NCBI RefSeq assembly: GCF_000712055.1
Contig: NZ_JOOA01000001.1
Location: forward strand, 248,001-312,000
Source: Ruminococcus sp. HUN007
Lineage (GTDB): Bacteria; Bacillota; Clostridia; Oscillospirales; Ruminococcaceae
Direction of reading: 5' to 3'
DNA: 64,000 nt
In this document: one piece after another, positions 1-24,603 of the stretch
Numbering within the stretch: the first letter of the stretch is position 1
Layout of the letters: each line of letters opens with the position of its first letter
Notes under the pieces: generated by a model
Told to the model about the DNA's origin: nothing
Seen by the model: only the letters and a program-made list of their open reading frames with translations
The model's database searches: none
Made by a program: the position numbers and the translations under genes

Positions 1-31
1 ACTATTGCAAACCGACACACGCACGATCGAG

Positions 32-7544: not shown

Positions 7545-8277
7545 AAACTATCCACTCGAACGATTCAGGTAAATACAATATTATATCTCTGGCTTTTTTT
7601 AAAGACAACACTCTTTCGATCTCCGGGCCAAAAGCCGCTCCGTCTGCAATTACCAGTGCTACGGAATAATCATTGTTCATTAATTCTCCGTAAATATTAC
7701 TCTTACCACCCGCAGAAATACATTTTGTATTGTATCTTGAAAAATAATCATTAAAAAACTGATATCCTGAATTAGAATCTTCTACAACAACAAGATCCGG
7801 CATTCTGAATTCTGATTCACCAACTCTGCACAAAGGATAAAATTCAGCATACAACCTTTTTGTTCCCTGATATTTGTTACCTGCGACATTCCTTATTCCG
7901 TATATCTCATTAATACTGTACGGCAAGTTAAACAAGGACGATCTTGTAGCAATTACATAGTAATTATCTGTATCTTTAATTGCAGATGCAAACTCTTCAG
8001 ATAAAGTGAATCTGTCACCTTCATCAATAAATACTATGCTGTCATGAATAGATGCAAGATTCTCTTTCCATCTTAAGCCGGTAAGTACTGTACATGGTTT
8101 TTGACAGCTCACCGTAATGCCAATACCCGGGCCATTAAGATTATATGCGTTGATCATCTCTATAAGAGTTGTTTTGCCTGTAGCACTGTCACCGCGAAGC
8201 AGAGTAATATTCCTGCATATCGTAAATTTATACTGTAAACGACGGCTGTTTACTATGACTTCATATTTTCCTGTCAT
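7519..8277 (-). CDS. P-loop ATPase of unknown function (DUF4869 module)
   Basis: The 252-residue protein has Walker A GDSATGKTT at residues 29-37 and Walker B IVFIDEGDRF at about 81-90, so it probably binds and hydrolyses ATP. The Asp-Glu pair and the later VIATRSSLFN (sensor-like) recall compact ABC/AAA-like NTPases, but there is no ABC signature LSGGQ and no nuclease motif. The C-terminal half (about 140-250) resembles no domain I know. The gene follows the DUF4869 gene by 12 bases and overlaps the small gene after it. AAGGTGGCAGGAAT precedes the ATG. The three genes read as one operon. Confidence 0.65.
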   Translation of the reverse strand: MTGKYEVIVNSRRLQYKFTICRNITLLRGDSATGKTTLIEMINAYNLNGPGIGITVSCQKPCTVLTGLRWKENLASIHDSIVFIDEGDRFTLSEEFASAIKDTDNYYVIATRSSLFNLPYSINEIYGIRNVAGNKYQGTKRLYAEFYPLCRVGESEFRMPDLVVVEDSNSGYQFFNDYFSRYNTKCISAGGKSNIYGELMNNDYSVALVIADGAAFGPEIERVLSLKKARDIILYLPESFEWIVFEIRFDKE

Positions 8278-8289
8278 ATTCCTGCCACC

Positions 8290-8748
8290 TTAAAGAAACA
8301 ATCCGGCGTTCATAACATACTCTTTTGCATTATGAACCACTACACCGTTGTTAACTATTTTTATTTCATACGGTTTATCACCGAAATCCATAACATGTCT
8401 TAAATTGATCAGCAAATCTTTATCTGATCTTTTGGCAATTTCAAGTACCCATCTTGCGCAGTTGTCTCCGCAGGTTGATACATTAAAAATTTTATCCTTA
8501 TCGTGCTGAAGAAGCAGCAGTGTTTTCAGTCCGCCTGATATTTGTGTTACAGGAATAACGCCCAGTGCCTTACTGTCTACAGCATTAGGACTGAGAACTA
8601 CAGCCTTGTCCACGCTTTTGATCATTCTTTTTGAGAATTCATCTTCTATCCATGAATCAAGATATGTATTATTAAAATACAAACTTGTATTGTAAACATA
8701 ATTCGGATATTCTTTCTCTGTCATATCACCGAAAAAAATATTCAGCAT
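8290..8748 (-). CDS. DUF4869 family protein
   Basis: The 152-residue protein begins MLNIFFGDM and contains YFNNTYLDSW, LSPNAVDSKALGVIPV, FNVSTCGDNCARWVLEIA and INLRHVMDFG. I recall this pattern as DUF4869, a family of unknown function common in gut clostridia. The C-x-x-x-C pair in STCGDNCA is a notable conserved site. No signal peptide or membrane helix is seen. A second, 5'-truncated copy lies at 23324-23716 and is about 90% similar by eye. The GGGGTGAT ribosome site and a clear promoter precede it, so it leads the module. Confidence 0.7.
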   Translation of the reverse strand: MLNIFFGDMTEKEYPNYVYNTSLYFNNTYLDSWIEDEFSKRMIKSVDKAVVLSPNAVDSKALGVIPVTQISGGLKTLLLLQHDKDKIFNVSTCGDNCARWVLEIAKRSDKDLLINLRHVMDFGDKPYEIKIVNNGVVVHNAKEYVMNAGLFL

Positions 8749-9294: not shown

Positions 9295-10452
9295 TTAGAA
9301 TCCAAAAAAGTTAGCAATTCTTTGTCCTACTGATTTAACCTTTTCAACTACTTTTCTTCCAGTATCAACAATAGCTCTGCCAGCCGTTTTAACAATATTT
9401 ACGGCTCCGGTCGCTACCTTCTTCACACCTTCTGAAACAGCAGTTGCTATTTTACCACCTGCCATTTTAGATAGCGAACTAGTAACCACCGTACTTACTG
9501 CCGCTCCGACTGGGCCAAAAACTGCTGTTGCAGCAACCTTAACACCAGTTTTGAGTGCATCGGTTGCCATTCCTGCAAGTACTGATACAGCTACATCACC
9601 GGCACGGCTTAGTCCTTCGGAAACTGTCATCTTACCTGTTGCTACCTTAAAGGCAATCTTGATATTCTCGACTGCAGTATATGCGATATTGGTAAGAACC
9701 TTCACCGGCGTACCTTTAGGAAGTATGCGAAGCATTCCTTTTTCAGAAGCAATATAGAGCGATCCAGCAACTGCCGCCTTTGCTCCTGTATCAAGACCTG
9801 AAGTAACTGCTCTTTCAACTACCTCACCAACATCAACACTTTCGCCAGTAACTATTGACTCAACTATCTCACTTCCGACAGACGCCGCTGCTTTAAGAAC
9901 AGCATTGTTTGCAGCCTGCTTTCCAACACCCATAGCGAGCTCGGAAAGTTTATATTCGTTCCAGCTTTTTTCATCCCAGTTCTGTCCGGAAGGCTGATTA
10001 TCATCGTGAACCTCATAGGCCTCAATATCAATAACCATATCTTTCTGACTGGAAGTATCTTTTCCGGTAAGCGTATCGTAAATGAATTCATTTACCTGCT
10101 GAAGTGATTCAGAACAATCTTCATAGAACTTAACTGCAGCCTCTCGACTTTCATTTTCAAGGACACTCTTTGTTTTTTCAGCAAACCATGCATCGCGGTT
10201 TACCCCACGTTCTTTTGCTGCATCCAAATCTCGAAGATTTTCATTGTTCTGGCGTATCGTTGACATTATCGTGTCAATACTATGGTTCAGCTCATCCTTG
10301 CTTTTCTCTGGAAGGTACTCACCGAATTTTCTTTCAAGATAAGGACGAACACCATCTTCACTGACATTATTTACGCCACCGACCATGTCACGTAAAAGAG
10401 CATTAAAATTTTCTGTTTCTTTATTGATAATACTTTCAAAAATTCCTGACAT
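9295..10452 (-). CDS. Gly/Ala-rich protein of unknown function with amphipathic C-terminal half
   Basis: The 385-residue protein has a charged helical N-terminal half (residues 1-150) and a C-terminal half (about 165-385) made of repeated Ala/Gly/Val helices, for example VKVAATAVFGPVGAAVSTVV, ending in a basic tail VEKVKSVGQRIANFFGF. There is no signal peptide. Glycine-zipper helices of this sort occur in pore-forming or membrane-inserting proteins and in secreted effectors, so a toxin-like role is possible but not shown. Its ribosome site CAGGAGG is intact, but an IS1182-type element starts about 40 bases upstream and has probably removed its promoter. Confidence 0.55.
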   Translation of the reverse strand: MSGIFESIINKETENFNALLRDMVGGVNNVSEDGVRPYLERKFGEYLPEKSKDELNHSIDTIMSTIRQNNENLRDLDAAKERGVNRDAWFAEKTKSVLENESREAAVKFYEDCSESLQQVNEFIYDTLTGKDTSSQKDMVIDIEAYEVHDDNQPSGQNWDEKSWNEYKLSELAMGVGKQAANNAVLKAAASVGSEIVESIVTGESVDVGEVVERAVTSGLDTGAKAAVAGSLYIASEKGMLRILPKGTPVKVLTNIAYTAVENIKIAFKVATGKMTVSEGLSRAGDVAVSVLAGMATDALKTGVKVAATAVFGPVGAAVSTVVTSSLSKMAGGKIATAVSEGVKKVATGAVNIVKTAGRAIVDTGRKVVEKVKSVGQRIANFFGF

Positions 10453-10492
10453 ATTATATTCCTCCTGTTATATTATATAAATGATTAGATTA

Positions 10493-12351
10493 GAGCGTCA
10501 AAACAGCGATTTTGACTTTTCAAAATTCCAATAGAATCTTGAAAATTTAATATTATTACAAATTATGGATATATCGAAACGTAAATCTCAATATTTAGTA
10601 GCTTTCCTTACTCATTTTTCAGGCTATTACCGCATTTTGGGCGCGGCATGCCGAGCCTTGCATGAATTTGCAAAACTTCTGGATGTTCATAGCAGTTACT
10701 TTAGCTCCAAAGAATAGTTTCTTTCGAATCATACCTCTTGCCGGTATTTTGTCAACATGATATTTTCTTCGAAGAATGGATGGAAGTGATTCAACACCAT
10801 TTCGGAATTTAGTTAAGTCACTAAATTCTTTTGTAGAACGTTTTCTCTGTTGCTGAGCTCTGTTTTTACTTTTTAATGAGACTGTTTTCTTACAAACCTT
10901 TACTCTCAAGTTAGGTTTACATTCATTAAAGTGTGGACAGTTTTCGCACTTTTCTTTATCGAAGGATGCTACACACTGCCCTGTCTTTTTATTGTAGCTG
11001 CAGCTTATTGGTTCATGTCCTCCGGGACACTTTAAGATCTGTGTTCCGTCTTCACTGAATTCAAAATCAGCATTGATATCTGGTGTTTCTTTACCAGTAA
11101 GATTAGTGTTTACAATTTCAATGTTTTTTGATTTTGCTAATGCTTCATCAGCTGTATATGCACCGTCAGCTACTATTACTGTGCGGTCGTCTTCCGGCTG
11201 AGAATTCATTCTTTCCATTGCATCATTGATGAATTTCTTATCACTGTAATTGTTTGCTTCAAACTGAAAATCAGTTACAAGCGTATCACCGTTTTCATTT
11301 GATGATTCTACTAAATTTGCAGCGTATCCTATATGATTTTTACCTGCTTTATGGCGAAATGTTGCTTCCGGATCCGCAGGATTCTGAAGTATTGAAGAAT
11401 CCATACTTGAATCGTCTGCATCTTTAAGCTGACGGATTCCGTTAGGATATATGTTAGTCTGCTCATTGAGAAAGCGTACCAGCAATTTATATGCACTGCT
11501 GTCTTCAATATCTTCATCACACAGGTTCATCAGAATTTTTGCATCTTCAAGAATAGTTACAATCTTGCTATCAACAGATTCACTACGATTATGATATACT
11601 ACTTTATTTCTGTCATCTACATCAGCATAATGCATGTATTCCAAAGGCACTTCTGCATTACTGCGTTTCATCTCTTTTACAAGGTTTGAAACACATGTAT
11701 AAAGCAGTTCGAGACGCGACATTTTCTTCACATTTGCAGATATCATCATGCTATCCATACGTTTAAGATGATGATCTATTCCCATAACAAGCGCCATAAC
11801 ATCTGTTATTTCTTTTTCCGTATTTTGTATGAGATCTATTCCTGTTTCAATTTCATACATTGCTAATCTTTCACGAAATCTTCCAAGACTTCTGTCACTA
11901 AGGGGCTGTTCATCAAATGATGTTGTGTGAAGTGCATACTGATATCTTATGTCAAACAGCAATGATTCAAGAAATTCATCATCGGACTGTCCTGTTAGCT
12001 GCTGAATGAATATTGCGCCTACGAGAACGTTTACCGGAGTATTTGGACGCGATAATTTTTCGCTGTAAAGAACCGCATACGGTGTTTCATCTATTGCAGG
12101 AAATACTTTTTCAGCAAATACTTTTGCCCATGATTTTTCTAAAAATCTGCGTTCTCTTTCTGTTAAATTCAGCGTGGAATCGAACATTGATATTTGTTCA
12201 TTCCTTAAATCGTTTGCTACGAATGACATTTCTTTTTCCTCCGAAATTTGATACTTCTATTGTACCATATTTCGCGTTTTCATTTGTTGTAATAATATTA
12301 AATTTTCAAGATGCTTTTGTTGGCTCAGATTGGTCTTACCCTTTTGACGCC
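10493..12351. mobile_element. IS1182-family insertion sequence
   Basis: The element carries one transposase gene and ends in short inverted repeats. The left end begins GAGCGTCAAAA at 10493 and the right end reads GGGCGTCAAAA on the complementary strand, ending near 12351. No clean target duplication is visible. It lies just upstream of the 385-residue gene. A 105-bp element with related ends lies at 12928-13032. Confidence 0.7.
10619..12229 (-). CDS. IS1182-family transposase
   Basis: The 536-residue DDE transposase looks intact. It has the N-terminal DUF772-type domain (SRPNTPVNVLVGAIFIQQLT, FDIRYQYALHT, SDRSLGRFRERL) and a catalytic core with the Asp of MDSSILQNPADPEATFRHKA and of VIVADGAYTADEAL. 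A Cys-rich segment (CENCPHFNEC) and a basic C-terminus (RRKYHVDKIPARGMIRKKLF) complete it. No frameshift is visible, so the element may be active. A GGAGGAAAAAG site precedes the ATG. Confidence 0.88.
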   Translation of the reverse strand: MSFVANDLRNEQISMFDSTLNLTERERRFLEKSWAKVFAEKVFPAIDETPYAVLYSEKLSRPNTPVNVLVGAIFIQQLTGQSDDEFLESLLFDIRYQYALHTTSFDEQPLSDRSLGRFRERLAMYEIETGIDLIQNTEKEITDVMALVMGIDHHLKRMDSMMISANVKKMSRLELLYTCVSNLVKEMKRSNAEVPLEYMHYADVDDRNKVVYHNRSESVDSKIVTILEDAKILMNLCDEDIEDSSAYKLLVRFLNEQTNIYPNGIRQLKDADDSSMDSSILQNPADPEATFRHKAGKNHIGYAANLVESSNENGDTLVTDFQFEANNYSDKKFINDAMERMNSQPEDDRTVIVADGAYTADEALAKSKNIEIVNTNLTGKETPDINADFEFSEDGTQILKCPGGHEPISCSYNKKTGQCVASFDKEKCENCPHFNECKPNLRVKVCKKTVSLKSKNRAQQQRKRSTKEFSDLTKFRNGVESLPSILRRKYHVDKIPARGMIRKKLFFGAKVTAMNIQKFCKFMQGSACRAQNAVIA

Positions 12352-12575
12352 CGAATCATGATTAATATTTCGAAAGATATATTTTGATTATAAGTAATGT
12401 GAATCTTTACAATCAATTTGAAATATTTCAACTTTTAATTCTTTTATTCAAATAATAAGGCAGATAATCCTACACATTTGTTGCACTTTATTTTTTACAT
12501 ATTCTCATGTTTTTCATCACCGATATTGATACATATTCCCATAACATCACTTACATTTTTGATGATAGGTTATAG
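12352..12575. other. Intergenic stretch without a gene
   Basis: Between the end of the insertion sequence and the promoter at 12576 the DNA is very A/T-rich. No open frame with a ribosome site and no strong hairpin was seen on either strand. Confidence 0.5.
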
Positions 12576-12604
12576 TTGACATTTGAACATCAGAAATATA
12601 TAAT
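12576..12604 (+). promoter_or_regulatory. Perfect consensus promoter of the 80-residue gene
   Basis: TTGACA (12576-12581), 17-base spacer, TATAAT (12599-12604). It is one of very few plus-strand promoters in the island. Confidence 0.85.
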
Positions 12605-12633
12605 ATAAATGAAACCCAAGGAGGTGAACTTCA

Positions 12634-12876
12634 ATGTTAAATAATGATAAATTGATTCGATACGCTCTTGATTTGGCTTATATTATCAAGTATACTAATA
12701 AAATCATCGACAAGCTATTGGATTTCCAAATGCGTCCTGATTACGCTGGAATGAACAGAAAACAGAGATTTGATATGGCATCCGATTTTAAAAACTCAAA
12801 TAAAAACAAAATAAAGGAATTGTCAATCATATTAGATAAGATTCAGGAAGATTATGAATTTTCTTATCTTAAATAA
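12634..12876 (+). CDS. Small hypothetical helical protein
   Basis: The 80-residue protein (MLNNDKLIRYALDLAYIIKY at the start, then a charged helical tail with KNKIKELSIILDKIQEDYEF) has no recognised domain. It appears real because a full-consensus promoter and an AAGGAGGTGA ribosome site precede it. It is the only plus-strand gene between 2 and 25 kb and lies between the insertion sequence and the MITE. It could be a small regulator or antitoxin, but nothing in the sequence proves that. Confidence 0.6.
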   Translation: MLNNDKLIRYALDLAYIIKYTNKIIDKLLDFQMRPDYAGMNRKQRFDMASDFKNSNKNKIKELSIILDKIQEDYEFSYLK

Positions 12877-12927
12877 TATTGATAAAATATTTTTAGTCTC
12901 TATATTTATTTTAATTAATATAATGAC

Positions 12928-13032
12928 TCAAGCGTCAAAAGTTGTTTTTCAAGAAAAGCATTCATACTGAATTAGGTAATTAAGGAATTCAGTATCAATG
13001 GAAGTCTAAAAACAAATCTTTTGGCGCTCATA
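12928..13032. mobile_element. MITE-like element with IS1182-like ends
   Basis: The left end AAGCGTCAAAAG-TTGTTTTT mirrors the right end (complement GAGCGCCAAAAGATTTGTTTTT split here as GAGCGCCAAAAG and ATTTGTTTTT). Inside, ATACTGAATT pairs with AATTCAGTAT, so the whole 105 bp folds into a nested hairpin. It has no coding capacity. The ends share GCGTCAAAA with the insertion sequence 0.6 kb to the left, which could mobilise it. Confidence 0.55.
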
Positions 13033-13104
13033 TTATATATTATTTTAAACTATTTATTATCCTATTTTTAGTCTCATATATAAACACCATTTTTTCAATA
13101 TCGA

Positions 13105-13190
13105 TTTAAAATCTTCAAAACTTCTTACCTGAACAACATTTTTCATTTTAAAGGGGAACTTTATTGCTTAATGTGAACTCAAAAATTCAC
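13105..13190 (-). pseudogene. Decayed fifth copy of the lectin-like paralogue (5' end only)
   Basis: The minus strand still shows the ribosome site GTGAGGTGAA, a TTG start region and codons for AIKFPFKMKNVVQVRSFEDF, matching the N-terminus of the four complete paralogues (AIKFPLKMKNGAQVRSLEEL). An early stop (TAA in place of a Lys codon) precedes it, and homology ends near 13105. The spacer before it equals the spacer between the third and fourth copies. It is the downstream end of the tandem array. Confidence 0.75.
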
Positions 13191-13207
13191 CTCACTTATA
13201 CTTTGCT

Positions 13208-14290
13208 TCATATCTTAAAATTTAAAGCAGGACGAACACCTTCCTCATAGCTGACAATAACGTAATTGATGTTTCTGGTTATGTTGTTGTATACATAACA
13301 GGTAGGTGGACTGAAATTAGGGGAAGCCGAACGTAGCCACCAACACGAATCGTTTTTTCTTTCCTTTTGTATCATTAATTGCTCTGTTTCTTCTTTTGAA
13401 AGAAGTGTCACGTTATCATTATTCACTGTAATTATCTTTTCTTTCTCATCTGCTGTAAAAGATGAGTTGTAGAAATCACCGTTTAACCATTTTCTGATTT
13501 CACTGTTCGACCAGTTGTTTGAATTACGGTCAAATTTCCTGTTACAAAGGCTCTCTGTTGTAATAGCATAAAGTGATGCATTGTCCTTGCGAAGAACTTT
13601 CCACTTTATCCTCTTTCCTTCGAAAAAGCCGAAATCAAAAATATCCCCAACTTTAAGAGAACCGATTGTTTCGTTCTTTGTAAGGTTAAACTTGAATGCC
13701 TCTTCTAAGGATTCAAGTGCATATTTTAATTTTCTATACAAATCTTGCTCAAACAGTTCATGAGTATATTGCTTCTCAAGCTCGTATGAAACTGAAAATC
13801 TGCTGTACTGATCATTTTTCTCATTGTTTATACATACACGATATTTCTGTATCTTACCTTTATCGTCTTTTATTGGAGCTACTTCTATCAAATAATCATT
13901 TAAGTTTATACTGTCATCAACCATCGATAACAGCTTTTCTTTTATTGATTTATCATCCGCCATAACGACTTCTTCTACGTCCGAAACTATATCAGGAACT
14001 GTATTGTTACCGAATTTTTCTGTCACATAACGTTCAATATCACTTTGATTAACCCCTTCAGTAATATTAAACATTGACATTACCGAGTAAACAAACTTTA
14101 TATTATTTTGATTAATACATTCTGGTAATTCATTAATTCCAAATGCCTTGCACCATCTTACTAACTGTCCACTGAAATAATAATTCATAATGCTTTCTAC
14201 ATCAGCGTTCGTTCTCAGTTCTTCAAGACTTCTTACCTGTGCTCCGTTTTTCATTTTTAACGGAAACTTTATTGCTTTATGTGAAATCAA
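13208..14290 (-). CDS. Lectin-like (DUF6273-type) recognition protein, paralogue 4
   Basis: The 360-residue protein has three parts. Residues about 1-60 are a conserved N-terminal domain (AIKFPLKMKNGAQVRSLEEL, YYFSGQLVRWCKAFG). Residues about 110-200 are a middle domain (YLIEVAPIKDDKGKIQKYRV, YELEKQYTHELFEQDL). Residues about 215-360 are a DUF6273-type domain (FDFGFFEGKRIKWKVLRKD, NWSNSEIRKWLNGDFYNSSF, WWLRS, GVRPAL). There is no signal peptide. A TTG start follows GTGAGGTGAA. It is the last complete gene of the operon led by the Ycf46-like ATPase. The stretch between WWLRS and GVRPAL differs strongly from its paralogues. Confidence 0.7.
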   Translation of the reverse strand: MISHKAIKFPLKMKNGAQVRSLEELRTNADVESIMNYYFSGQLVRWCKAFGINELPECINQNNIKFVYSVMSMFNITEGVNQSDIERYVTEKFGNNTVPDIVSDVEEVVMADDKSIKEKLLSMVDDSINLNDYLIEVAPIKDDKGKIQKYRVCINNEKNDQYSRFSVSYELEKQYTHELFEQDLYRKLKYALESLEEAFKFNLTKNETIGSLKVGDIFDFGFFEGKRIKWKVLRKDNASLYAITTESLCNRKFDRNSNNWSNSEIRKWLNGDFYNSSFTADEKEKIITVNNDNVTLLSKEETEQLMIQKERKNDSCWWLRSASPNFSPPTCYVYNNITRNINYVIVSYEEGVRPALNFKI

Positions 14291-14317
14291 AATAATTCAC
14301 CTCACTTATACTTTGCT

Positions 14318-15397
14318 TCATATCTTAAGACTTATAGCGGGACGAACACCACATTCAGCAGCACTAACATGAGTGCCATGAAAATCACCGTTTTCATAGA
14401 CTTCCCATTCACCATAACTTGCCCCAGGAAAAGGTGTTCGTAACCACCACCAAAAACCTATACTTCTTTCTTGCTGTGTCATTAATTGTTCTGCTTCTTC
14501 TTTTGAAAGAAGTGTCACTTTATCAGAATTCACAGTTAGAATCTTCTCTTTCTCATCAGCAGTAAAAGATGAATTATAAAAATCACTATTTAACCATTTT
14601 CTGATTTCACTATTCATCCAGTTATTTGAACTAATATCAAATCTACTTATTTTCAGGTTCTCAATTGTAATTGCATAAAGAGAAACGCTGTCCTTTCTAA
14701 GTACCTTCCACTTTATTTTCTTATCATTAAATCTTCCAAAATCAAAAGTATCTCCGACTTTCAGCAAACTGAATGTTCCAATCTTTGTACAGTTGAACTT
14801 CAATGTATTTTCAGAAACTTCAAGAGCATTCATTATTTTTCTGTACAAATCTTTCTCAAACAGTTCATGAGTATAATTATCATCAAGTTCATAAACAACA
14901 GAAAATCTACTATACTGATCATTTTTCTCATTGCTTATACATACACGATATTTCTGTATATTACCTTTATCGTCCTTTATCGGAACTACTTCAATCGAAT
15001 AGTCATCTAAGTTTATGTTATTATCAAGCATCGATGATAGCTTTTCTTTTATTGTTTTATCATCTGATAAACTGAATTCTTCAACATCCGTGACTTTATC
15101 ATAAGATGTATTGTCACCGAAATTTTCATTAACATATCTTATGATATCGCTTTCCTGTATGTTACCGTTAAGGCCAAGTGTCATCAATACTGATTCCACA
15201 AATTTTCTATTATCGCATTCAAACTGTTCAGGCAAATCAGTCATACCAAACGCTTTACACCATCTTGTAAGCTGACCGCTGAAATAATACTGCATAATGC
15301 TTTCAAGATCAGCGTTTTCTCTTAGCTCTTCAAGACTTCTTACCTCTACTCCGTTTTTCATTTTTAACGGAAACTTTATTGCTTTCTTTGGTTTCAT
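14318..15397 (-). CDS. Lectin-like (DUF6273-type) recognition protein, paralogue 3
   Basis: The 359-residue protein has the same three-part layout as its neighbours: N-terminal AIKFPLKMKNGVEVRSLEEL with YYFSGQLTRWCKAFG, a middle domain (YSIEVVPIKDDKGNIQKYRV), and a DUF6273-type C-terminus (FDFGRFNDKKIKWKVLRKD, WWWLRTPFPGAS, GVRPAISLKI). Its ATG overlaps the stop of paralogue 2 (ATGA), and its GAGGAA ribosome site lies inside that gene, so translation is coupled. The loop after WWLR has its own sequence (GEWEVYENGDFHGTHV). The function is not known. Confidence 0.7.
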   Translation of the reverse strand: MKPKKAIKFPLKMKNGVEVRSLEELRENADLESIMQYYFSGQLTRWCKAFGMTDLPEQFECDNRKFVESVLMTLGLNGNIQESDIIRYVNENFGDNTSYDKVTDVEEFSLSDDKTIKEKLSSMLDNNINLDDYSIEVVPIKDDKGNIQKYRVCISNEKNDQYSRFSVVYELDDNYTHELFEKDLYRKIMNALEVSENTLKFNCTKIGTFSLLKVGDTFDFGRFNDKKIKWKVLRKDSVSLYAITIENLKISRFDISSNNWMNSEIRKWLNSDFYNSSFTADEKEKILTVNSDKVTLLSKEEAEQLMTQQERSIGFWWWLRTPFPGASYGEWEVYENGDFHGTHVSAAECGVRPAISLKI

Positions 15398-16482
15398 AGC
15401 ATTTCCTCATACATATACTTAAAGAATGCTTCATTGTTAAGAATTAAAACAGGACGAACCCCCTCTTCAGAATGGATACTATGATCGCTCAAGGTTCCAT
15501 CAATATTGACTGCCCAAGTAAGTGTACCTGAACGAGGGTAAGACGAACGTAGCCACCACGAATAGAAATTTCTTTCCTGTTTTGGCATCAATTGTTCTAC
15601 CTCATCTTTTGAAAGAAGACTAACATTATCCGAATCTACAGTAAGTATCATTTTCTTTTCATCTGCTGTAAATGAAGAATTGTAAAAATTACAGTTGAGC
15701 CATTTTCTTATTTCACTATTCCACCAATTATTTGAATGTCTATCAAAAGTTCTATTACACAAACACTCTGTTGTTATCGCATAAAGAAAATTGTTTTCAT
15801 TTTTTAGTATCCTCCATTTTATTCTATCATCACCTATATGGCCAAAATAAAAAGTCTCTCCGACTTCTATTTTTTTTCGATTGAACTTCAGAGTTTTTTC
15901 TAGAGAATCAAGTGCTATTTTTATTTCTCTAATCATATCATTTTCAAATAATTCAAAAGTGTATTGCTTATCAATTTTATAAGGAACAGAAAAACTACTA
16001 TACTGGTCATTTTTCTCATTGCTTATACATACACGGTATTTCTGTATATTACCGTTCTCCGCCTTTATTGGAACTACTTCTATCAAATAATCGTCTAAGT
16101 TTATGCTGTCACCAACCATCAATAACAATTTTCCCTTTATTGTTTTGTCATCTGTAATACTATGTTCGTCAACATCAGAAACTATATCAAAAACAGTATT
16201 CGCACCGAAATTCTCATAAACATACCTCAAGATATCGCTTTCTGATATTCTATCGTTAATATGTAAAGATGATAATATAGATTTCACAAATTTCACATTA
16301 GTACTTTCAAACTGTTCTGATAATTCTGCCATATCCAAAGCCATACACCATCTGTTAAGATGGCCGCTAAAATAATATTTCATAACGCTTTCAATATCTG
16401 CATGGTTTCTTAGTTCTTCAACGCTCCTTACTTGTACTCCGTTTTTCATTATTAACGGAAATTTAATGTGTTCATTAGTCAA
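15394..16482 (-). CDS. Lectin-like (DUF6273-type) recognition protein, paralogue 2
   Basis: The 362-residue protein starts with TTG after GGGGGAATG. N-terminal domain: HIKFPLIMKNGVQVRSVEEL and YYFSGHLNRWCMALD. Middle domain: YLIEVVPIKAENGNIQKYRV. C-terminal DUF6273-type domain: FYFGHIGDDRIKWRILKNE, WWNSEIRKWLNCNFYNSSF, WWLRSSYPRSG, GVRPVLIL. Unlike the others it carries an extra 12-residue tail (NEAFFKYMYEEML), which contains the ribosome site of the next gene. This suggests the gene was joined to its neighbour by recombination. It is the most divergent of the four. Confidence 0.7.
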   Translation of the reverse strand: MTNEHIKFPLIMKNGVQVRSVEELRNHADIESVMKYYFSGHLNRWCMALDMAELSEQFESTNVKFVKSILSSLHINDRISESDILRYVYENFGANTVFDIVSDVDEHSITDDKTIKGKLLLMVGDSINLDDYLIEVVPIKAENGNIQKYRVCISNEKNDQYSSFSVPYKIDKQYTFELFENDMIREIKIALDSLEKTLKFNRKKIEVGETFYFGHIGDDRIKWRILKNENNFLYAITTECLCNRTFDRHSNNWWNSEIRKWLNCNFYNSSFTADEKKMILTVDSDNVSLLSKDEVEQLMPKQERNFYSWWLRSSYPRSGTLTWAVNIDGTLSDHSIHSEEGVRPVLILNNEAFFKYMYEEML

Positions 16483-16515
16483 TAAATCATTCCCCCTAAT
16501 ATTATTTATAAAAAA

Positions 16516-17583
16516 TCATTTTTTAAGATATAAAGCTGGACGGATTGCTCCTCCACGATGAATGTCATTTTTATCAAAAGTTCCATCAACACGAACATTC
16601 CAAGCAGATTGATTATCATAATAAAATTGATTTTCTGTACGTAGCCACCAACATGAAACCGAACATCTATCATGTCGAGGTAGTAGTTCCTCTGCTTCTT
16701 CTTTTGAAAGAAGTGTCACATTATCATCATTCACCTCAATAATACTTTCTTTTTCGTCTGATGTAAATGATAAATTATAAAATTCTCCATTAAGCCAATT
16801 TCTTATTTCTGCGTTTGTCCAGTCATTTGATCTAGTTGCATACTTTCTGTTACACAAACTATCTGTTGTTACTACATAAATTGACGCATCGTCTTTTTTT
16901 ATTATTTTCCATCTTATCTTTTTCTTTCCCAAGTGACCAAAGTCAAAAGTATCCCCAACTTCTAACAATGCAAAAGTAGCTTTAGTTCGACTGAATTTCT
17001 GTGATTGTTCTAAATAAATAAGTGCATATTTTATTTTTCTGCACAAATCTTTTTCAAACAATTCGTGAGTGTATTCATTGTCAAGTTCATAAGGAACAGA
17101 AAACCTACTGTATTGGTCACTTTTATCATTGATTATTACTACACGATATTTCTGAATTACACCTCTATCATCCTTTATCGGAACCACTTCAATCGAATAG
17201 TTATTTAAGTTTATACTACTATCAACAATCGATGACAATTTTTCCTTTATTATTTTATCATCCGTAATATAGATTTCTAATATATCAGTATCTTTTTTAT
17301 CCCCGAAACTCTCATTTACATATCTTACAATTTCACTTTTGGGTATGATATCATTAAGATTAAAAGCAACCAAAACTGATTCCACAAATTTTTCATTATT
17401 ACACTCAAACTGTTCTGGCAGGTCAGTTATCCCAAACGCTTTACACCATCTTGTAAGCTGACCACTAAAATAGTATTGCATAATACTTTCTAAATCAGCA
17501 TTTTCTCTCAACTCTTCTAGACTTCTTACCAGTGCTCCATTTTTCATTTTCAACGGAAATTTTATTATTTTCTTTGGTATCAT
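16516..17583 (-). CDS. Lectin-like (DUF6273-type) recognition protein, paralogue 1
   Basis: The 355-residue protein is the first of four tandem copies and starts 12 bases after the ATPase stop, behind AAGGGGC. N-terminal domain: IIKFPLKMKNGALVRSLEEL, YYFSGQLTRWCKAFG. Middle: YSIEVVPIKDDRGVIQKYRV. C-terminal DUF6273-type domain: FDFGHLGKKKIRWKIIKKD, WTNAEIRNWLNGEFYNLSF, CWWLRTENQFYYDN, AIRPALYLKK. The WLR...(V/I)RPAL frame resembles the C-type-lectin-like variable domains of DUF1566/Fib_succ_major proteins. It has no export signal, so it probably acts in the cytoplasm with the ATPase. Confidence 0.7.
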   Translation of the reverse strand: MIPKKIIKFPLKMKNGALVRSLEELRENADLESIMQYYFSGQLTRWCKAFGITDLPEQFECNNEKFVESVLVAFNLNDIIPKSEIVRYVNESFGDKKDTDILEIYITDDKIIKEKLSSIVDSSINLNNYSIEVVPIKDDRGVIQKYRVVIINDKSDQYSRFSVPYELDNEYTHELFEKDLCRKIKYALIYLEQSQKFSRTKATFALLEVGDTFDFGHLGKKKIRWKIIKKDDASIYVVTTDSLCNRKYATRSNDWTNAEIRNWLNGEFYNLSFTSDEKESIIEVNDDNVTLLSKEEAEELLPRHDRCSVSCWWLRTENQFYYDNQSAWNVRVDGTFDKNDIHRGGAIRPALYLKK

Positions 17584-17595
17584 ATCTTATGCCCC

Positions 17596-19086
17596 TTACG
17601 TTGCATTCTTGAAATTTCCACTCTCGGAATAGAACTTTCTCAGATTCTTTATCTTCTCACCCATAATATCTGAAAGTGATTTCGTTGAGTTTATTATCTT
17701 CAGAACATTATCTGTTTTCAGGCCATCCTGCTTATTAGCAAATGCATCTTCTACTGCTTCGACAACTACACTTTCTATATCAGCACCACTGTATCCACTC
17801 GATTTACCAACAAGCGCACTAACATCTATTCCGCTTAGATCAGCAGGTCTTCTCTTTCTTATATGAATCTCAAATATTCTCTTTCGTTCATTATCGTTCG
17901 GCAGATCAACATAGAAAATATCATCAAACCTTCCTTTACGCAAAAGTTCAGGAGGCATCTTTGAAATATCATTTGCCGTTGCAACAACAAAAACCGGTGA
18001 AGTTTTCTCCTGAAGCCAGGTCAGAAACGTAGCAAACAGTCTCATTGTAACCTCATGACCGGAACCGTCCGTTCCGGCAAAAGCTTTTTCAAGTTCATCG
18101 ACCCACAATACACACGGAGAAATAGTTTCTGCAAGTTCTATCGCCTTACGCATATTGGTCTCTGATTCACCGAGATACTTTCCCATTATCTTACCCATAT
18201 CGAGTTTAAGAAGAGGCACTTCAAACAAAGCAGATGTCGCCTTCGCCGCAAGAGATTTTCCGCATCCAGGAATGCCAGCGATGAGAACGCCTTTTGGCAT
18301 ATCCACTCCGAATTGTACAGCACTGTCGATATCTCTGAATATTGCTGCTTTTCTTTCAAGCCACTTTTTCAGGTTGTCAAGCCCACCGATATCTGTAATT
18401 TTCTCTTTAACATTAATCATTTCAAGAGTATTAGACTTCATAATGATCTGACGCTTTTGTTCGAAAATAAGCTTAAGATCCTTTTGAGTTATCTCACCAT
18501 TTTCTGCAAGTGAAAGATTAAGCAGAGTATCTATCTCATACATCGTCAAGCCCTTAAAAGCAATGGCTATCTCATTAAGCAACTTTTCACCCACCGATAT
18601 ATCATAGGCATTCAGATATTCCCGTACATGATCACAAATATCATCCTGTAGCATAGGATCCATTTCAAAAACCGTTACATACTTTTCTATCTCTTTCGGA
18701 ATAGAAATAACAGGAGAAACAATGATTATCGTCGAATCTATCTGCCCGTTAATTATCCTCTGACAGATACGCTTTATTATCGCAACCGTATCAGTATCAT
18801 CGCTGCTTAAAAACGTGTGTGCATCTTTTAGAACCACCAGATGATTATCAATATCTCCACTTGAATTCAAAAATGCAAGTGCTTCGCATAAACTCATTTT
18901 GGTTTCCATAAGTGGAGTCTTGTTTTTAAAATTCACCAGTCCATCCGCTGCATTCCATTCAATAAGTCCCTTTTCAAGATTAAGTGAACTTATTATTTCA
19001 TCAGTCTTTATCTCTTCATAAGCATCGATATACAGTATTGGATACCCTGCATCAATATACTGACGAAGATTATTTTTTAGCGTCAT
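17596..19086 (-). CDS. Ycf46-like AAA+ ATPase
   Basis: The 496-residue protein matches the Ycf46 layout. A degenerate N-terminal P-loop-fold domain (about 1-215, [30 protein letters not shown]) lacks Walker A. An active AAA+ module (about 228-440) follows, with [14 protein letters not shown], Walker A GIPGCGKS (271-278), Walker [15 protein letters not shown] (Asp330, Glu331), sensor [14 protein letters not shown] and arginine finger [11 protein letters not shown] helical lid follows. Such proteins form hexameric remodelling machines. No protease or nuclease domain is attached. It leads an operon with four lectin-like proteins, which are probably its substrates, adaptors or sensors. Confidence 0.85.
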
Positions 19087-19124
19087 ATTCCTGTCACCCC
19101 ATATTTTCTTATAATCCTATTATA

Positions 19125-19163
19125 AATACAAAAACACCACAAGCATATACTTATACCTGCGGT
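19125..19163 (-). terminator. Hairpin terminator after the HAD phosphatase gene
   Basis: On the minus strand ACACCGCAGG pairs with CTTGTGGTGT and is followed by a T-rich run. It separates the HAD/metallophosphoesterase operon from the ATPase operon. Confidence 0.5.
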
Positions 19164-19454
19164 GTACAAATCAATCATATTACCCCATAACAGCCAGATG
19201 ACCAATCCCCACAAGTCCCTATAGCTTTGCGATACATGTTTTCATGCATTCGAAATAAATAAGTATCATAAAACTTATTTCTATATCTAAGTATACTAAA
19301 CAAAATAAAAAAACACAAGTATTTCACAATGTTTTTGTTAATATTAACAATCCGTTCATATTCAATTTGGAAATCTTCAAGAATTGAATTTTACTAATCC
19401 TACACATACTCATTTTCAAATACAAAGCAACCTCGAAAATTACAAACTGAGATA
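19164..19454. other. Intergenic stretch without a gene
   Basis: A/T-rich DNA with many stops in all frames. No ribosome site with an open frame and no known RNA motif was seen. The ATPase promoter should lie between here and 19087; TATAAT-like words occur near 19110 but no good -35 was found. Confidence 0.45.
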
Positions 19455-20099
19455 TTACCAGTTAATAAACCCATCTGTACTATGAACTTTTACAAATCGC
19501 TTCTCCCCCATCTGATAATACTGATCCCCATCAGAATCAATATGATGCTTTCTCCAGAGATTGTTCTTTTCCAGTATCTTTCCAACATCATGCTCCTGCG
19601 ACTCATACACCTTACCCCATTTTCCTTTTCGGCGAACAAGGCAGGTCGTTATTCCCGCTCTGTTTCCTCCATAGATATCATTAACAATACTGTTCCCCAC
19701 ATGAGCCATCTTATCAGGCGTGATCTTATAACGCTTCAGTGTCTCCTCAAAACATAACGGATCCGGTTTACGGGCTTCGTAGATCATCCAGTCTGTATGC
19801 AGCTTCTTGTGATACATCTTCGCAATCTTTTTATTGGAATTCGTTATCAGTACAATCTTGAAGCCCATCTGTCTCAGTTCTGCAAATTTCGCCTTCGATT
19901 TCTTCAGACCGAATGCACCGACAAAATATCTCAGATAATTCTTTTCAACTGCCCCAATTGTGTCATCAATATCAAATGAAATAACTTCAATACCCTTTTC
20001 TTTCAGGCGCGAATAATCGATATCCAGAATCGATTTCTGATACACATCCGGTACAAATAACGGTAACGATTCCGGAGACAGATCAATATGCTTACTCAC
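19455..20099 (-). CDS. HAD-superfamily phosphatase, YqeG-like
   Basis: The 214-residue protein has HAD motif I as FDIDDTIGAV (near residue 42), motif II LITNSNKK, a Lys in EARKPDP and motif III VGNSIVNDIYGGNRAG. The N-terminal PDVYQKSILDIDYSRLKEKG is typical of the YqeG (HAD-IIIA) family, cytosolic phosphatases of poorly known substrate. The C-terminal 45 residues extend beyond the usual 170. A GTG start follows AAAGGAGG. It lies 14 bases after the metallophosphoesterase gene, probably in the same operon. Confidence 0.8.
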   Translation of the reverse strand: MSKHIDLSPESLPLFVPDVYQKSILDIDYSRLKEKGIEVISFDIDDTIGAVEKNYLRYFVGAFGLKKSKAKFAELRQMGFKIVLITNSNKKIAKMYHKKLHTDWMIYEARKPDPLCFEETLKRYKITPDKMAHVGNSIVNDIYGGNRAGITTCLVRRKGKWGKVYESQEHDVGKILEKNNLWRKHHIDSDGDQYYQMGEKRFVKVHSTDGFINW

Positions 20100-20113
20100 T
20101 GGCGTTTCCTCCT

Positions 20114-20794
20114 TTACACATAGTATTCCTTAAAATTATCAAGGCACAGACAACCGAGCCTGCCGCCGAAAACCGCTGCGCAGTCGATGAAGATATTGTT
20201 TCTGCATCGATAGATACGATTATTGGCTCCCAAAATGCATGTCGGCGTATGTCCGCAGACCAGATATGAATTCTTCTCTTTTATGTACCTGATATGCGGA
20301 TTCGGACGTGACCAGATAAGATCATGTTTTCTGACAATTCTTCTTTTTCTGCTTCCAAGCCCGGCATGAACAAGAGTAAACGTCCTGCCGTTTACCTCTA
20401 CATCCTGGATCAGTGCAAAGAAGTAATTCATATAATCAAGGATATCTCTGCAGGTTTCGATCGGTAACTCACGGAAAGATTCGATTGTCGCCCATCCGCC
20501 TTCATCTATCCAGTCTCTCATTGCATCCATTGTATCTTTATCGATCTTATTAAAATCGAACTCCTTATCCGCAAGTTTTTCAAGTACCGGATAAGCCATT
20601 GCTTCATGATTTCCGAGCATTGGAACAACGTTTGGACGTTTCATCATATCGAGAAGGATCTTTGCTGGTTCCGGACCGCGGTCAACTACATCACCGAGGA
20701 TGTACATAATATCATCATCGCTGAATCTGATTTTTTCAAGCATTCTGCGGTACTTGTTGTACTCGCCGTGGATATCGCTCATTACATAAACCAT
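20114..20794 (-). CDS. Metallophosphoesterase, PPP-type serine/threonine phosphatase-like
   Basis: The 226-residue protein has all the metal-site motifs of the PPP family: SDIHGEYNKY, GDVVDRGPEP, LGNHEAM, LVHAGLG and VCGHTPT. Relatives dephosphorylate proteins or nucleotides in the cytoplasm. The start MVYVMSDIHG at 20794 is chosen because AGGGGG lies 8 bases upstream; MQM at 20800 is possible but too close to it. It precedes the HAD phosphatase gene, giving a two-phosphatase operon. Confidence 0.85.
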   Translation of the reverse strand: MVYVMSDIHGEYNKYRRMLEKIRFSDDDIMYILGDVVDRGPEPAKILLDMMKRPNVVPMLGNHEAMAYPVLEKLADKEFDFNKIDKDTMDAMRDWIDEGGWATIESFRELPIETCRDILDYMNYFFALIQDVEVNGRTFTLVHAGLGSRKRRIVRKHDLIWSRPNPHIRYIKEKNSYLVCGHTPTCILGANNRIYRCRNNIFIDCAAVFGGRLGCLCLDNFKEYYV

Positions 20795-20873
20795 TTGCAT
20801 TCCCCCTGTGGTATTGCTGGCGTTGTCGGGTGGATTTGTTTCTGTAACTATTATATCACGATGGGAAAAAAAT

Positions 20874-20898
20874 AAGGTCACCTGGCAGGCGACCTTTT
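20874..20898 (-). terminator. Hairpin terminator
   Basis: AAGGTCACC pairs with GGCGACCTT, with a T run on the minus-strand side. It is the same type as at 9242 and 26517. Confidence 0.6.
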
Positions 20899-20913
20899 AG
20901 TGTGTGTTATTTT

Positions 20914-20983
20914 TTACAGGCTGCAGAGCAGACTGTTTATAGGTAGCAGTTTTCTGCTCGCAAGAGCGGGAAACTACCTTTTA
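20914..20983. repeat. 70-bp accessory-gene 3' hairpin repeat, copy 1
   Basis: It begins TTACAGGCTGC and ends GGGAAACTACCTTTTA. GGTAG pairs with CTACC around an inner GCTC/GAGC stem, and GAGCAGA pairs with TCTGCTC. It lies just after the stop of the HipA-like gene. Copies 2 and 3 are at 22258 and 24529, and a partial copy at 23282. Confidence 0.75.
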
Positions 20984-21003
20984 TGCTGTGGTTTTGATCT
21001 GTT

Positions 21004-22092
21004 TTATTTGATTTTCAAAGACTTTGCAAGAAAATCATAAGTCCTGATTATATAATCATTTATAAGTCCGTAATTCGGGGTGATATAATCAAAAACTGCT
21101 GAAGTTTCCGCTTCTGCTGCTTCTGTACTTTGTATGATAAAATCTCTGTCCGGAAGTTCACGTTTGAGGATATCACAGCATACGTTATTGGATAAAATAC
21201 TATCGGTAAAAAGATTACCGCGGACATCATCTATTCTCGGAACACCTGTTGATATCAGGCCGAGATTGTAGTCAAAATACGGCGCAAGACCGGTTATTTT
21301 TCCTGTTTCAGAATCACGGAGAACACCGGCGTTCTGATTATGCCTGTCATCGTTGTGAAGAAGTGCATCGTAAAACACCATCATGACATACGGCTTTACC
21401 AGCTCCTTATCGAGACGTGGAATGATATATTCCGGCTCATCGTGATCGTGAAAATAATTGCAGAACGGTTCGAAATCAGCATCTGCATTTCCAGTAAAGT
21501 CCTTCGTTACGATATATGATGATCTGATTCCTGTTTCTTCAGAGATTTTGTTATACATCTCATATTCGGCTACATTTGCATTCATATGTTTAAGGAACTG
21601 ATAGGAATAATACTCGCTTAAAAGTTCCTGCGTACTTCCCTGCTTGAACATATACCAGCTGCCATCGATAAAACGCCATGCTTTTTCATAGCTGCCGACT
21701 GTACCGAATTCAAGATAGCCTTTTCTGTTACCGGAATCTGATTCCGAAGAACCGTAAAATGCTATATCTGCTATTTCTTCGTTATATTCCTTAAGAGAAC
21801 GGTAATCAAGGTTTTCGTCAGTTTTTCGTATCCACCAGTTATCTGTTATTGAAATGCCGTGTCCGATATCAATAACTTCGCTCAGATCATCCGGATTCCT
21901 CAGGCGAAGGGCTTTGAAAAGCTTTCTCGAATGAGAACGGTGAACGTCTATGCAGCGGTTATCAAGCCATATATGTAACGGCATCCCCGGAGCAAAACAG
22001 GCAGGACAGAGTTCCGGAATGATTATTTCTGATATACCATTTTCATCAGCAAAGGCTATTGCCTTGTCTCTGTGCATTATAGTATAGTTCAT
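21004..22092 (-). CDS. HipA-like kinase
   Basis: The 362-residue protein has the C-terminal kinase signature of the HipA/CtkA group: LLHNDDRHNQNAGVLRD (catalytic loop) and LAPYFDYNLGL (metal-binding Asp). The middle part (FKQGSTQELLSEYYSYQFLK, YIVTKDFTG) fits the ATP-binding lobe. HipA kinases phosphorylate and inhibit aminoacyl-tRNA synthetases and act as toxins with a HipB-type DNA-binding partner. No HipB gene lies next to it, so this is an orphan or belongs to a single-protein class. The start at 22092 follows ACAGGAGGGAAACG. It has its own shared-type promoter and the 70-bp hairpin repeat after the stop. Confidence 0.7.
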   Translation of the reverse strand: MNYTIMHRDKAIAFADENGISEIIIPELCPACFAPGMPLHIWLDNRCIDVHRSHSRKLFKALRLRNPDDLSEVIDIGHGISITDNWWIRKTDENLDYRSLKEYNEEIADIAFYGSSESDSGNRKGYLEFGTVGSYEKAWRFIDGSWYMFKQGSTQELLSEYYSYQFLKHMNANVAEYEMYNKISEETGIRSSYIVTKDFTGNADADFEPFCNYFHDHDEPEYIIPRLDKELVKPYVMMVFYDALLHNDDRHNQNAGVLRDSETGKITGLAPYFDYNLGLISTGVPRIDDVRGNLFTDSILSNNVCCDILKRELPDRDFIIQSTEAAEAETSAVFDYITPNYGLINDYIIRTYDFLAKSLKIK

Positions 22093-22138
22093 CGTTTCCC
22101 TCCTGTTCTGTTTGATCGGTACGTTAATATTACTTATA

Positions 22139-22167
22139 ATTTTACCATCGTACTGATGTTTCGTCAA
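22139..22167 (-). promoter_or_regulatory. Promoter of the HipA-like gene, shared block
   Basis: TTGACG (22162-22167), 17-base spacer, TAAAAT (22139-22144), minus strand. The surrounding 60 bases almost match the DUF4869 promoter block at 8777-8840. Confidence 0.75.
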
Positions 22168-22191
22168 TGTAAAAATATCCAAAACTCAAAA

Positions 22192-23722: not shown

Positions 23723-23817
23723 CTCATAAAGAAAGGCACAATATCATGAACAAGTCTATATAGATCCGCTGTCTTGTCTTCATACCCGCCGTTATTATCG
23801 TTATTCGTGGTAATCAT
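23723..23817 (-). pseudogene. Remnant of the AbiEi-like partner gene (5' end only)
   Basis: An ATG overlaps the stop of the AbiEi-like gene (ATGA at 23814-23817) and opens the frame MITTNNDNNGGYEDKTADLY followed by RLVHDIVPFF. After about 31 codons it runs into the truncated DUF4869 gene in another frame. The overlap is the normal arrangement of an AbiEi antitoxin with its toxin. The N-terminus does not look like standard AbiEii, so the lost partner is unidentified. Confidence 0.55.
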
Positions 23818-24407
23818 AAAAGGACCTCCATATAACGCTGTACCTTCGGCTTAACCCTTAAAATCTCTGCGTACTGCATCAATTTATGAATGTTTTTCTC
23901 TTTTGAAGCAGCGTATTTTTTCATAGCTGCATTCACGATTTGAATATCACTTCCGCTTCCACGAAGAATATCACAAAGGGTTCTTTCAAGATCATAAACA
24001 TTTATTGAATGACCGCAGTATGACTGCATTTCTATAATTCCAAACGAATAGTTTTCCGGAATAACTCTCTTTACAATTATGCTTTCCTGTTTTAAAGACG
24101 GCGCGTTATAACCTTTTGGAAATGTCATGGTGTACTTTGCCGGAGTACGATCAGAATATCCGAGAAGATAAAGTGCTGTATCATGAGAAAATATACCTCG
24201 TCCGTATTTTTTCTGCAGTAAGTAAAAATCATCTTCCCATGCATCTTTGCTCAGATACAGTCCCCGTGCATAACGATACAGTTCACCTATGTCTACCATT
24301 TCTTTTAATGCACTTCGATGTATTCCTGATTCAGTTACCTGTTTCGTAGTAACGATTCCATCAGTTGTTTTTGTCATCAGATCTTTTATCTTTTCATTTT
24401 CAGACAT
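23814..24407 (-). CDS. AbiEi-like type IV antitoxin / transcriptional repressor
   Basis: The 197-residue protein has an N-terminal winged helix (GIVTTKQVTESGIHRSALKE, IGELYRYARGLYL) and the AbiEi central fold (YGRGIFSHDTALYLLGYSD, TMTFPKGYNAPSL, VYDLERTLCDILRGSGSDI). This family represses its own promoter and neutralises an AbiEii nucleotidyltransferase. The start at 24407 follows GAGGTGACCGT; the longer upstream frame would run through the promoter. The partner gene is cut after about 31 codons, so only the antitoxin survives. Confidence 0.8.
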   Translation of the reverse strand: MSENEKIKDLMTKTTDGIVTTKQVTESGIHRSALKEMVDIGELYRYARGLYLSKDAWEDDFYLLQKKYGRGIFSHDTALYLLGYSDRTPAKYTMTFPKGYNAPSLKQESIIVKRVIPENYSFGIIEMQSYCGHSINVYDLERTLCDILRGSGSDIQIVNAAMKKYAASKEKNIHKLMQYAEILRVKPKVQRYMEVLL

Positions 24408-24432
24408 TACGGTCACCTCACTTTCTACTTCT

Positions 24433-24470
24433 ACACATTTAATTATAACAAAGTAATGTGTGTTTGTCAA
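24433..24470 (-). promoter_or_regulatory. AbiEi-like promoter with operator inverted repeat
   Basis: Minus strand: TTGACA (24465-24470), 17 bases, TATAAT (24442-24447). Inverted half-sites ACACATT/AATGTGT (24433-24439 and 24455-24461) straddle the -10, which fits negative autoregulation by an AbiEi-type repressor. Confidence 0.65.
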
Positions 24471-24478
24471 TAAAAAAT

Positions 24479-24526
24479 AATACAACCACACATTGTTTTC
24501 GCAAATATTATTGTGTGGTTGTATTT
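24479..24526. terminator. Strong bidirectional hairpin
   Basis: AATACAACCACACA pairs perfectly with TGTGTGGTTGTATT, loop of about 20 bases. It separates the AbiEi-like promoter from the 70-bp repeat copy 3. It repeats the CACACA word of the operator and may also bind the repressor. Confidence 0.6.
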
Positions 24527-24528
24527 TA

Positions 24529-24598
24529 TTACAGGCTGCGGAAGCAGACTGTTTATAGATAGCAGTTTTCTGCTCGCAAGAGCGGGAAACTACCTTTG
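24529..24598. repeat. 70-bp accessory-gene 3' hairpin repeat, copy 3
   Basis: Same arms as copies 1 and 2, with one extra base in GGAAGCAGA. It lies directly after the stop of the 173-residue membrane protein gene. Confidence 0.75.
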
Positions 24599-24603
24599 AT
24601 GCG

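Follow-up and report, generated by a model that had tools for sequence, protein, structure and literature searches.

A candidate intracellular conflict cassette in Ruminococcus sp. HUN007: a Cdc48-like AAA+ ATPase with an array of paralogues and a helical third protein

We have analyzed a stretch of 64,000 nucleotides from the genome of Ruminococcus sp. HUN007 (contig NZ_JOOA01000001.1, positions 248,001 to 312,000; hereafter the window). Its main feature is a set of genes, all of them on the minus strand in the list of open reading frames (ORFs), that includes an AAA+ ATPase, four tandem paralogues sharing an N-terminal domain and, past an insertion sequence (IS) element, a third gene coding for a predicted all-helical protein. 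The set is conserved in rumen bacteria and in some distant relatives, and looks related to a part of a predicted anti-virus system. We propose that it is a three-part intracellular conflict cassette, probably directed against phages, in which the ATPase would form a ring, the helical protein would be the effector and the paralogues would act as recognition proteins. Judging from sequence comparison, we give this reading a probability of about one half. The host genome (G000) is 4.2 Mb long, in four contigs.

Conservation of the cassette

The clearest evidence for the cassette is the recurrence of the same genes at 23 loci of one ATPase clade, i.e., the window, 15 loci from a scan of named genomes, four from a class-wide search and three from plasmids. 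The third gene was located near the ATPase at 21 of the 23 and an N-terminal-domain gene at 19, in all cases on the ATPase strand. The third gene was missing from L049, which is cut right after the ATPase, and from L059, cut inside it, and at L054 it extends past the contig end. The loci lacking an N-terminal-domain gene were L049, L062, L111 (which begins just upstream of the ATPase) and L197. Duplicates were excluded (L044, L045 and L046 of L055, L058 and L059, respectively), the near-copies L050 and L051 were both counted, and 14 further plasmid records from enterobacteria that contain the third protein stayed uncounted, as did three E. coli genomes of 5426. Five loci (L108–L111 and L197) were first found via the third protein, which favors the third-protein count; the class search with the ATPase later recovered the same four class loci. 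The profile models A4 and A5 contain some of the 23 loci, L197–L199 being in neither. A single-sequence search with the window third protein found homologues at 13 of the 15 named loci, a result therefore independent of a model trained on them. The loci are spread over Bacillota, Cyanobacteriota and Pseudomonadota, with one to four copies of the N-terminal-domain gene, and the closest named relatives by ATPase are an Oscillospiraceae metagenome-assembled genome (MAG) and Ruminococcus species.

The original prediction, made from the letters of the window alone, had expected repeated co-occurrence with variable copy number, and this is what we found. Among 297 genomes of the family the ATPase was present in four (E ≤ 1e-30) and the N-terminal query in five, and they were neighbors in all four genomes that share them; the fifth N-terminal match was weak and came from a genome without the ATPase. 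In 391 genomes of the class, the ATPase profile (E ≤ 1e-60) gave 10 matches, five of them above 600 bits and all with the third gene; the other five, at 314–442 bits, had neither partner. The third-protein profile matched six of these 391 genomes, the sixth as a broken fragment in G616, and the N-terminal profile eight, four with the full set and four weak and without the ATPase. Outside the clade, no third or N-terminal gene was found in flanks of up to 8 kb around 80 viral ATPase relatives (80 of 140). Relatives of the ATPase are present in 662 plasmid records (E ≤ 1e-40), and one of these, in an annotated injection-system cluster of a Treponema plasmid (L200), had neither partner. A maximum-likelihood tree of 44 ATPases, comprising 16 of the 80 viral ones taken at even steps and leaving out the incomplete L059, separated the 21 partner-linked ATPases, together with that of the truncated locus L049, from the rest by a branch with 100/99 support. 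As judged from this tree, the ATPases of the cassette are one well-supported, distinct clade, nearly always accompanied by partners. The claimed link between a Ycf46-type ATPase and the array thus holds within this clade, and since the Ycf46-like ATPases examined outside had no partners, the array is specific to the clade among those examined.

Two contigs, labeled as Alistipes (L052) and Spirochaetales (L049) MAGs, carry ATPases nested among those of Ruminococcus, which would reflect either a recent transfer or misbinned contigs.

The ATPase

The ATPase gene (17596..19086, minus strand) codes for 496 residues and was characterized by the ORF list, Pfam, an alignment of 14 rows and the tree. 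The protein matches PF00004 with 104.6 bits and AAA_lid_3 with 28.8 bits (cut-off 27.2). Walker A (GIPGCGKS, residues 271–278, 18253..18276, minus strand), Walker B (CVLWVDE), RKGRFD and a pore-loop-like GKYLGESE are near-invariant across the alignment, I272 being the sole residue of Walker A that varies. The pore-loop tyrosine is kept in 14 of 14 rows; a Klebsiella homologue has phenylalanine instead. By these motifs the protein is a predicted AAA+ ATPase with Walker A, Walker B, arginine finger and lid, and its description as intact was borne out. We call it only CDC48-like because it has one AAA domain and scores 130.5 bits, below the cut-off of 802.65 of the NCBIfam CDC48 family. The name Ycf46 is that of the original prediction, and no search here assigned it.

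The paralogue array

The first paralogue (16516..17583, 355 residues) begins 12 bases downstream of the ATPase and is followed by the second (15394..16482, 362 residues, TTG start), the third (14318..15397, 359 residues) and the fourth (13208..14290, 360 residues, TTG start), all on the minus strand and delimited by the ORF list, Pfam and alignment. The second and third share four bases (15394–15397). Identity to the first is 53, 62 and 59% for the other three. In all four an N-terminal domain some 60 residues long precedes a middle domain, and DUF6273 (PF19789; 48.3, 55.1, 58.4 and 53.5 bits against a cut-off of 23.5) makes up the C-terminal part. A remnant of a fifth copy, consisting of the N-terminal domain only, lies at about 13084..13182 on the minus strand, where a single frame translates as LSSH*AIKFPFKMKNVVQVRSFEDFKSILKKWC; this copy contains a stop and is interrupted by a gap. 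The layout that had been predicted, i.e., four genes of 355–362 codons with a 12-base gap, one 4-base overlap and a decayed fifth copy, was confirmed.

Outside a tip loop treated below, the ratio of non-synonymous to synonymous substitution rates (dN/dS) among the window paralogues was 0.06–0.39, indicating that the four intact copies are held by selection; on these values we rejected a pseudogene array. We also rejected an array of adhesins, since crude hydropathy gives no export signal, in agreement with what had been predicted. A search of 50,697 phage records with the paralogue gave no match.

The constant part of these proteins is, to judge from the alignments, the N-terminal domain, and the C-termini vary. 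The domain could be aligned over 23 sequences and the remainder of the proteins changes. Close to the ATPase we counted 31 N-terminal-domain genes across loci. Ten of their tails were scanned with Pfam: two carry Sel1, three carry SH3, LRR_5 and DUF6273, respectively, and the other five gave no match. Elsewhere the tail is a CobW GTPase (Microcystis), has no Pfam match (Exiguobacterium) or, in the four window paralogues, is DUF6273. The term lectin-like, under which the paralogues had been described, thus applies to some members only. For these it finds support in the sections on DUF6273 of PMC10743442, where the domain is modeled as a C-type-lectin fold. Our own AlphaFold2 model of the third paralogue (alignment of seven rows; predicted local distance difference test, pLDDT, 64.5, and below 50 at residues 309–349) had no match in the PDB at E ≤ 0.001 and is too poor to confirm the lectin fold.

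Some related genes were found apart from the array. The host has three more DUF6273 genes, one in the window (36935–39004, minus strand), joined to BspA-type leucine-rich repeats, and two at G000:C1:357 kb and G000:C2:1938 kb. Small proteins of 90–104 residues with a diverged N-terminal domain are coded upstream of the ATPase at L050 (9194–9824), L051 (9194–9824) and L052 (3258–3843), convergent with a regulator of the HTH_3 type (HTH_3 scan: L050). A similar small gene resembling the N-terminal domain lies at L115 (G378:C146, 8476–10585), together with a regulator-like gene, next to an IIGP/AIG1-like GTPase for which the third-protein profile gave a weak match (2.3e-5); this is perhaps a parallel system with the GTPase replacing the ATPase.

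Tip loops and the retroelement question

The variability of the window array is concentrated in one loop. On average, identity amounts to 0.70 for the head, 0.63 for the middle domain and 0.62 for DUF6273 as far as a WWLR motif, against 0.20 for the loop of 27 columns that follows. By alignment, codon-position and dN/dS comparison these hypervariable tip loops lie at 16546..16638, 15460..15546, 14348..14437 and 13238..13330 (paralogues 1 to 4, minus strand). In the loop dN was 0.64–1.00 and dS 0.60–1.68 (one pair not computable), compared to a dN of 0.06–0.34 elsewhere.

Such a pattern brings to mind a diversity-generating retroelement, of which the array would be the target set, diversified now or recently by a reverse transcriptase. 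DUF6273 is a known hypermutated target whose variable region is C-terminal (PMC10743442, PMC11792537, in the parts that deal with this domain), and the corresponding part of PMC11792537 places that region in the same loop. Besides, of the 58 first and second codon positions in the loop, 23 differ between the two L048 copies, versus 3 of the 29 third positions (40 of 652 versus 38 of 326 over the rest), and the host genome has a working-looking retroelement at C1:196 kb. However, the three copies of L059 are less clean (5, 5 and 2 of 29 third positions changed), third positions differ as well in the loops of the window, and the L048 pattern could be produced by strong selection alone, as it would be by adenine-directed mutagenesis of AAY codons. 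No template repeat with adenine-only differences was found for the tip loops. A scan of 14 reverse-transcriptase loci in the host, G297, G298 and G300 gave at best 12–15 non-adenine mismatches in 60, the same as shuffled DNA (12–15). As a positive control, the scan recovered the host element's own template with 0 mismatches; G299 and G302, with their reverse-transcriptase loci (L068, L071–L073), lay outside its scope. An earlier adenine-tolerant scan of 11 loci, run without a shuffled control and leaving aside L074–L076 and L024–L029 (the latter with split reverse transcriptases), found no template either. Whole-genome BLAST of the host, G297 and G298 with the tip loops (a host loop being the query for the host, where the first search had been insensitive) returned only array members and chance-level matches. 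We consider a retroelement origin very improbable and, because no template was found and the codon pattern is mixed, do not claim such action on the window array.

The host retroelement itself (L063, G000:C1:188000–205000) has a target gene, a reverse transcriptase and a template repeat that differs from its own target by 11 adenine-only changes in 100 bases. This target is a different gene, not the DUF6273 array.

The third protein

The original prediction was right about the operon of ATPase and four paralogues and missed a third conserved gene, beyond the IS element. We noticed it as a recurrent protein in the neighborhoods of related ATPases. In the window it lies 7.1 kb from the ATPase (9295..10452, minus strand), past an IS transposase (10619..12229, minus strand; Pfam DDE_Tnp_1_6 and DUF772), and codes for 385 residues predicted to be all-helical, with a hydrophobic C-terminal half and a basic tail; of the 22 remaining loci of the ATPase clade, 20 have a homologue. 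Full-length rumen versions have 337–385 residues, and a long form of about 500 residues with a central insert was found at six loci (L062, L108–L111 and L197). The insert, read by others as a restriction-endonuclease fold, contains a D...QxK pattern, which may be an endonuclease-like signature. For the homologue in CoCoNuT systems, the portion of PMC11090510 devoted to it describes an inactivated restriction-endonuclease fold.

An excess of GxxxG motifs at p < 0.05 was detected in 12 of 19 third proteins, and the Pfam Gly-zipper passed its cut-off in one of the eight scanned (L109, just above). This hydrophobic, often glycine-zipper-like half is what suggests a membrane effector.

A non-immune machine for protein quality control or remodeling would account for part of these data. 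The ATPase would extract or unfold clients, the N-terminal-domain proteins would be client adaptors, binding their clients by Sel1, LRR and lectin modules, and the third protein would be a membrane anchor or scaffold. Cdc48/p97-like AAA domains, pore loops and Sel1/TPR adaptors occur in quality-control machines, and the cassette has such a domain, a conserved pore loop and, in some tails, Sel1. Neither is there a strong single transmembrane segment in 19 third proteins (best 19-residue hydropathy 1.22–2.10). However, the distribution is patchy and not that of a housekeeping function (4 of 297 family and 5 of 391 class genomes), and the mobile and defence neighbors, the hypervariable loops and the CoCoNuT-embedded form suit a conflict better than quality control, which we regard as rather unlikely.

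Two further observations concern this gene. An unannotated phage record of 4.5 kb (MT839117.1, “Bacteriophage sp.”) codes for a long-form third protein, 41.6% identical; it may be a bacterial fragment, and is too short to interpret. In the window, a DUF4869 gene with an ATP-binding-like neighbor (7519–8748, minus strand) adjoins the third gene, and a DUF4869 gene 52% identical is found near the R. albus KH2T6 cassette (L055, 15104–15541); it is possibly a recurrent neighbor of the cassette.

Genomic context

Several loci lie among defence genes. In E. coli ZF34 the pair of ATPase and third protein is located beside BREX, within an operon that, from the order of its genes, looks like an extended Type III-A CoCoNuT. 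Both there and in a Klebsiella plasmid the pair is followed by CARF, vWA (annotated as a hypothetical protein in Klebsiella), phosphatase, kinase and helicase-type genes. CARF and Mokosh-like genes are found near the Photobacterium locus, an annotated McrC-family gene near that of Exiguobacterium, HEC-01 near L050 and a Type I methyltransferase near L052. In the window itself, an AbiEi-like protein (23814–24644, minus strand; PADLOC 1.1e-70) is coded 4.7 kb upstream of the ATPase, with no partner ORF of at least 150 residues listed between the gene and 22938. PADLOC found nothing strong in the nine other proteins flanking the cassette. A HipA-C-like protein (21004–22182, minus strand) was under the Pfam cut-off and had a weak PADLOC match to PDC-M03A.

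An integrase or resolvase was present beside six loci, two of them near-copies, and the cassette is carried by plasmids in enterobacteria, Exiguobacterium and Microcystis. This mobility would also be expected of a self/non-self or element-maintenance device that serves the island or plasmid carrying it and kills cells losing it, or rival elements whose proteins the lectin loops would recognize. Nevertheless, defence genes share such islands, so that mobility does not separate maintenance from defence, and no constant small antitoxin-like partner was seen in the gene maps. We therefore hold this alternative to be improbable.

Proposed function

The genomic context supports the conflict system of the original prediction, without proving it. 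We infer the physical contacts, the direction of action, the membrane damage and the phage as trigger as follows. The N-terminal domain would dock each sensor to the ATPase or to the effector, docking being suggested by the shared head and sensing by the variable tails. A ligand bound by the sensor module would license the ring, which would grip its substrate via the pore loop and unfold or release the effector; the tyrosine in that loop, together with a domain like that of Cdc48, suggests a threading ring. The effector would then damage the membrane (or nucleic acid, in the long form) and stop the infected cell.

A more specific version, which we put forward as tentative and less probable than the general reading, is a stand-alone diversified immune cassette. 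The docking domain would show lectin or repeat modules to the AAA+ ring, and ligand would arm a helical effector attacking membranes or nucleic acids. The rumen tip loops would be a tandem intracellular repertoire, and the core of ATPase and effector would have been fitted into CoCoNuT operons by a swap of sensors.

Several results weigh against a conflict cassette of this kind. The window third protein has no GxxxG excess (one motif versus a shuffled mean of 2.55), nor has that of L048, its nearest relative, and its best 19-residue hydropathy is just 1.67, so that membrane insertion is weakly supported for the window copy. The model of the third protein (alignment of 12 rows) is all-helical with a pLDDT of 67 and has no PDB match at E ≤ 0.001. 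PADLOC had no match for the paralogue or the third protein and no McrC match for the Exiguobacterium McrC-family protein, and its TerY match at the Photobacterium locus was weak (0.0017). The defence neighbors were chosen by eye, without a background rate, and four of the 662 plasmid records were opened, three of them being in the clade.

If the conflict reading is true, the CDC48-like ATPase and glycine-zipper pair of CoCoNuT also exists as an independent cassette equipped with sensors, in which it can be tested outside the long operon, and one clade of the obscure Ycf46-like ATPases gains a function. Moreover, bacteria would present within their own cells, on a docking domain linked to an ATPase, a lectin fold that is hypermutated by phages to recognize their hosts, and this might serve as a recognition repertoire.

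Comparison with known systems

The ATPase resembles IetA of the IetAS system (PADLOC 1.3e-25). However, IetA works with a protease, and the Pfam scan of window proteins detected none. We rejected membership in IetAS because the score with NCBIfam IteA_antiphage (89.4 bits) is far under the cut-off of 510. The DUF6273 targets of retroelements, as described in parts of PMC10743442 and PMC11792537 (tentaclins and Faecalibacterium prophages), share the Pfam domain and the C-terminal variable loop. Those targets, receptor-binding proteins of phages or their relatives, form part of retroelement cassettes, whereas the genes of the window go with an ATPase and the template searches were negative. The NTP-dependent diversifying conflict systems (vWA-MoxR ternary and others), in the sections of PMC7159879 on them, are alike in joining an NTPase chaperone to variable modules, some with a C-type-lectin fold. 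Unlike the cassette, the vWA-MoxR systems have an ATPase of a different family, and no MoxR or vWA gene was recognized near the window cassette.

The cassette also resembles the 5' extension of Type III-A CoCoNuT, where, according to the corresponding section of PMC11090510, a SpoVK/CDC48-like ATPase adjoins a glycine-zipper protein. This optional feature, an ATPase next to a third protein, is present in the cassette as a homologous pair; the core of CoCoNuT was not found, no McrBC, CnuH helicase, CnuE, CARF or TerY-P being recognized near it (Pfam over 9295–22182; PADLOC over the ten flanking proteins of 4943–25125). The third protein of CoCoNuT has a C-terminal glycine zipper and that of the window does not, and the latter also lacks the central insert (337–385 residues in the rumen versus about 500). 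Conversely, the window has an array of N-terminal-domain sensors that was not found at L062 or L197. The claim of an undescribed system has accordingly to be divided. In the open-licence literature of PubMed Central we found no description of a stand-alone cassette with N-terminal-domain genes, and the pair of ATPase and third protein is already described, there only in PMC11090510, as part of extended CoCoNuT. The same part of PMC11090510 raises the possibility that elaborations of this sort are cassettes in their own right. The window cassette agrees with this proposal and adds sensor genes.

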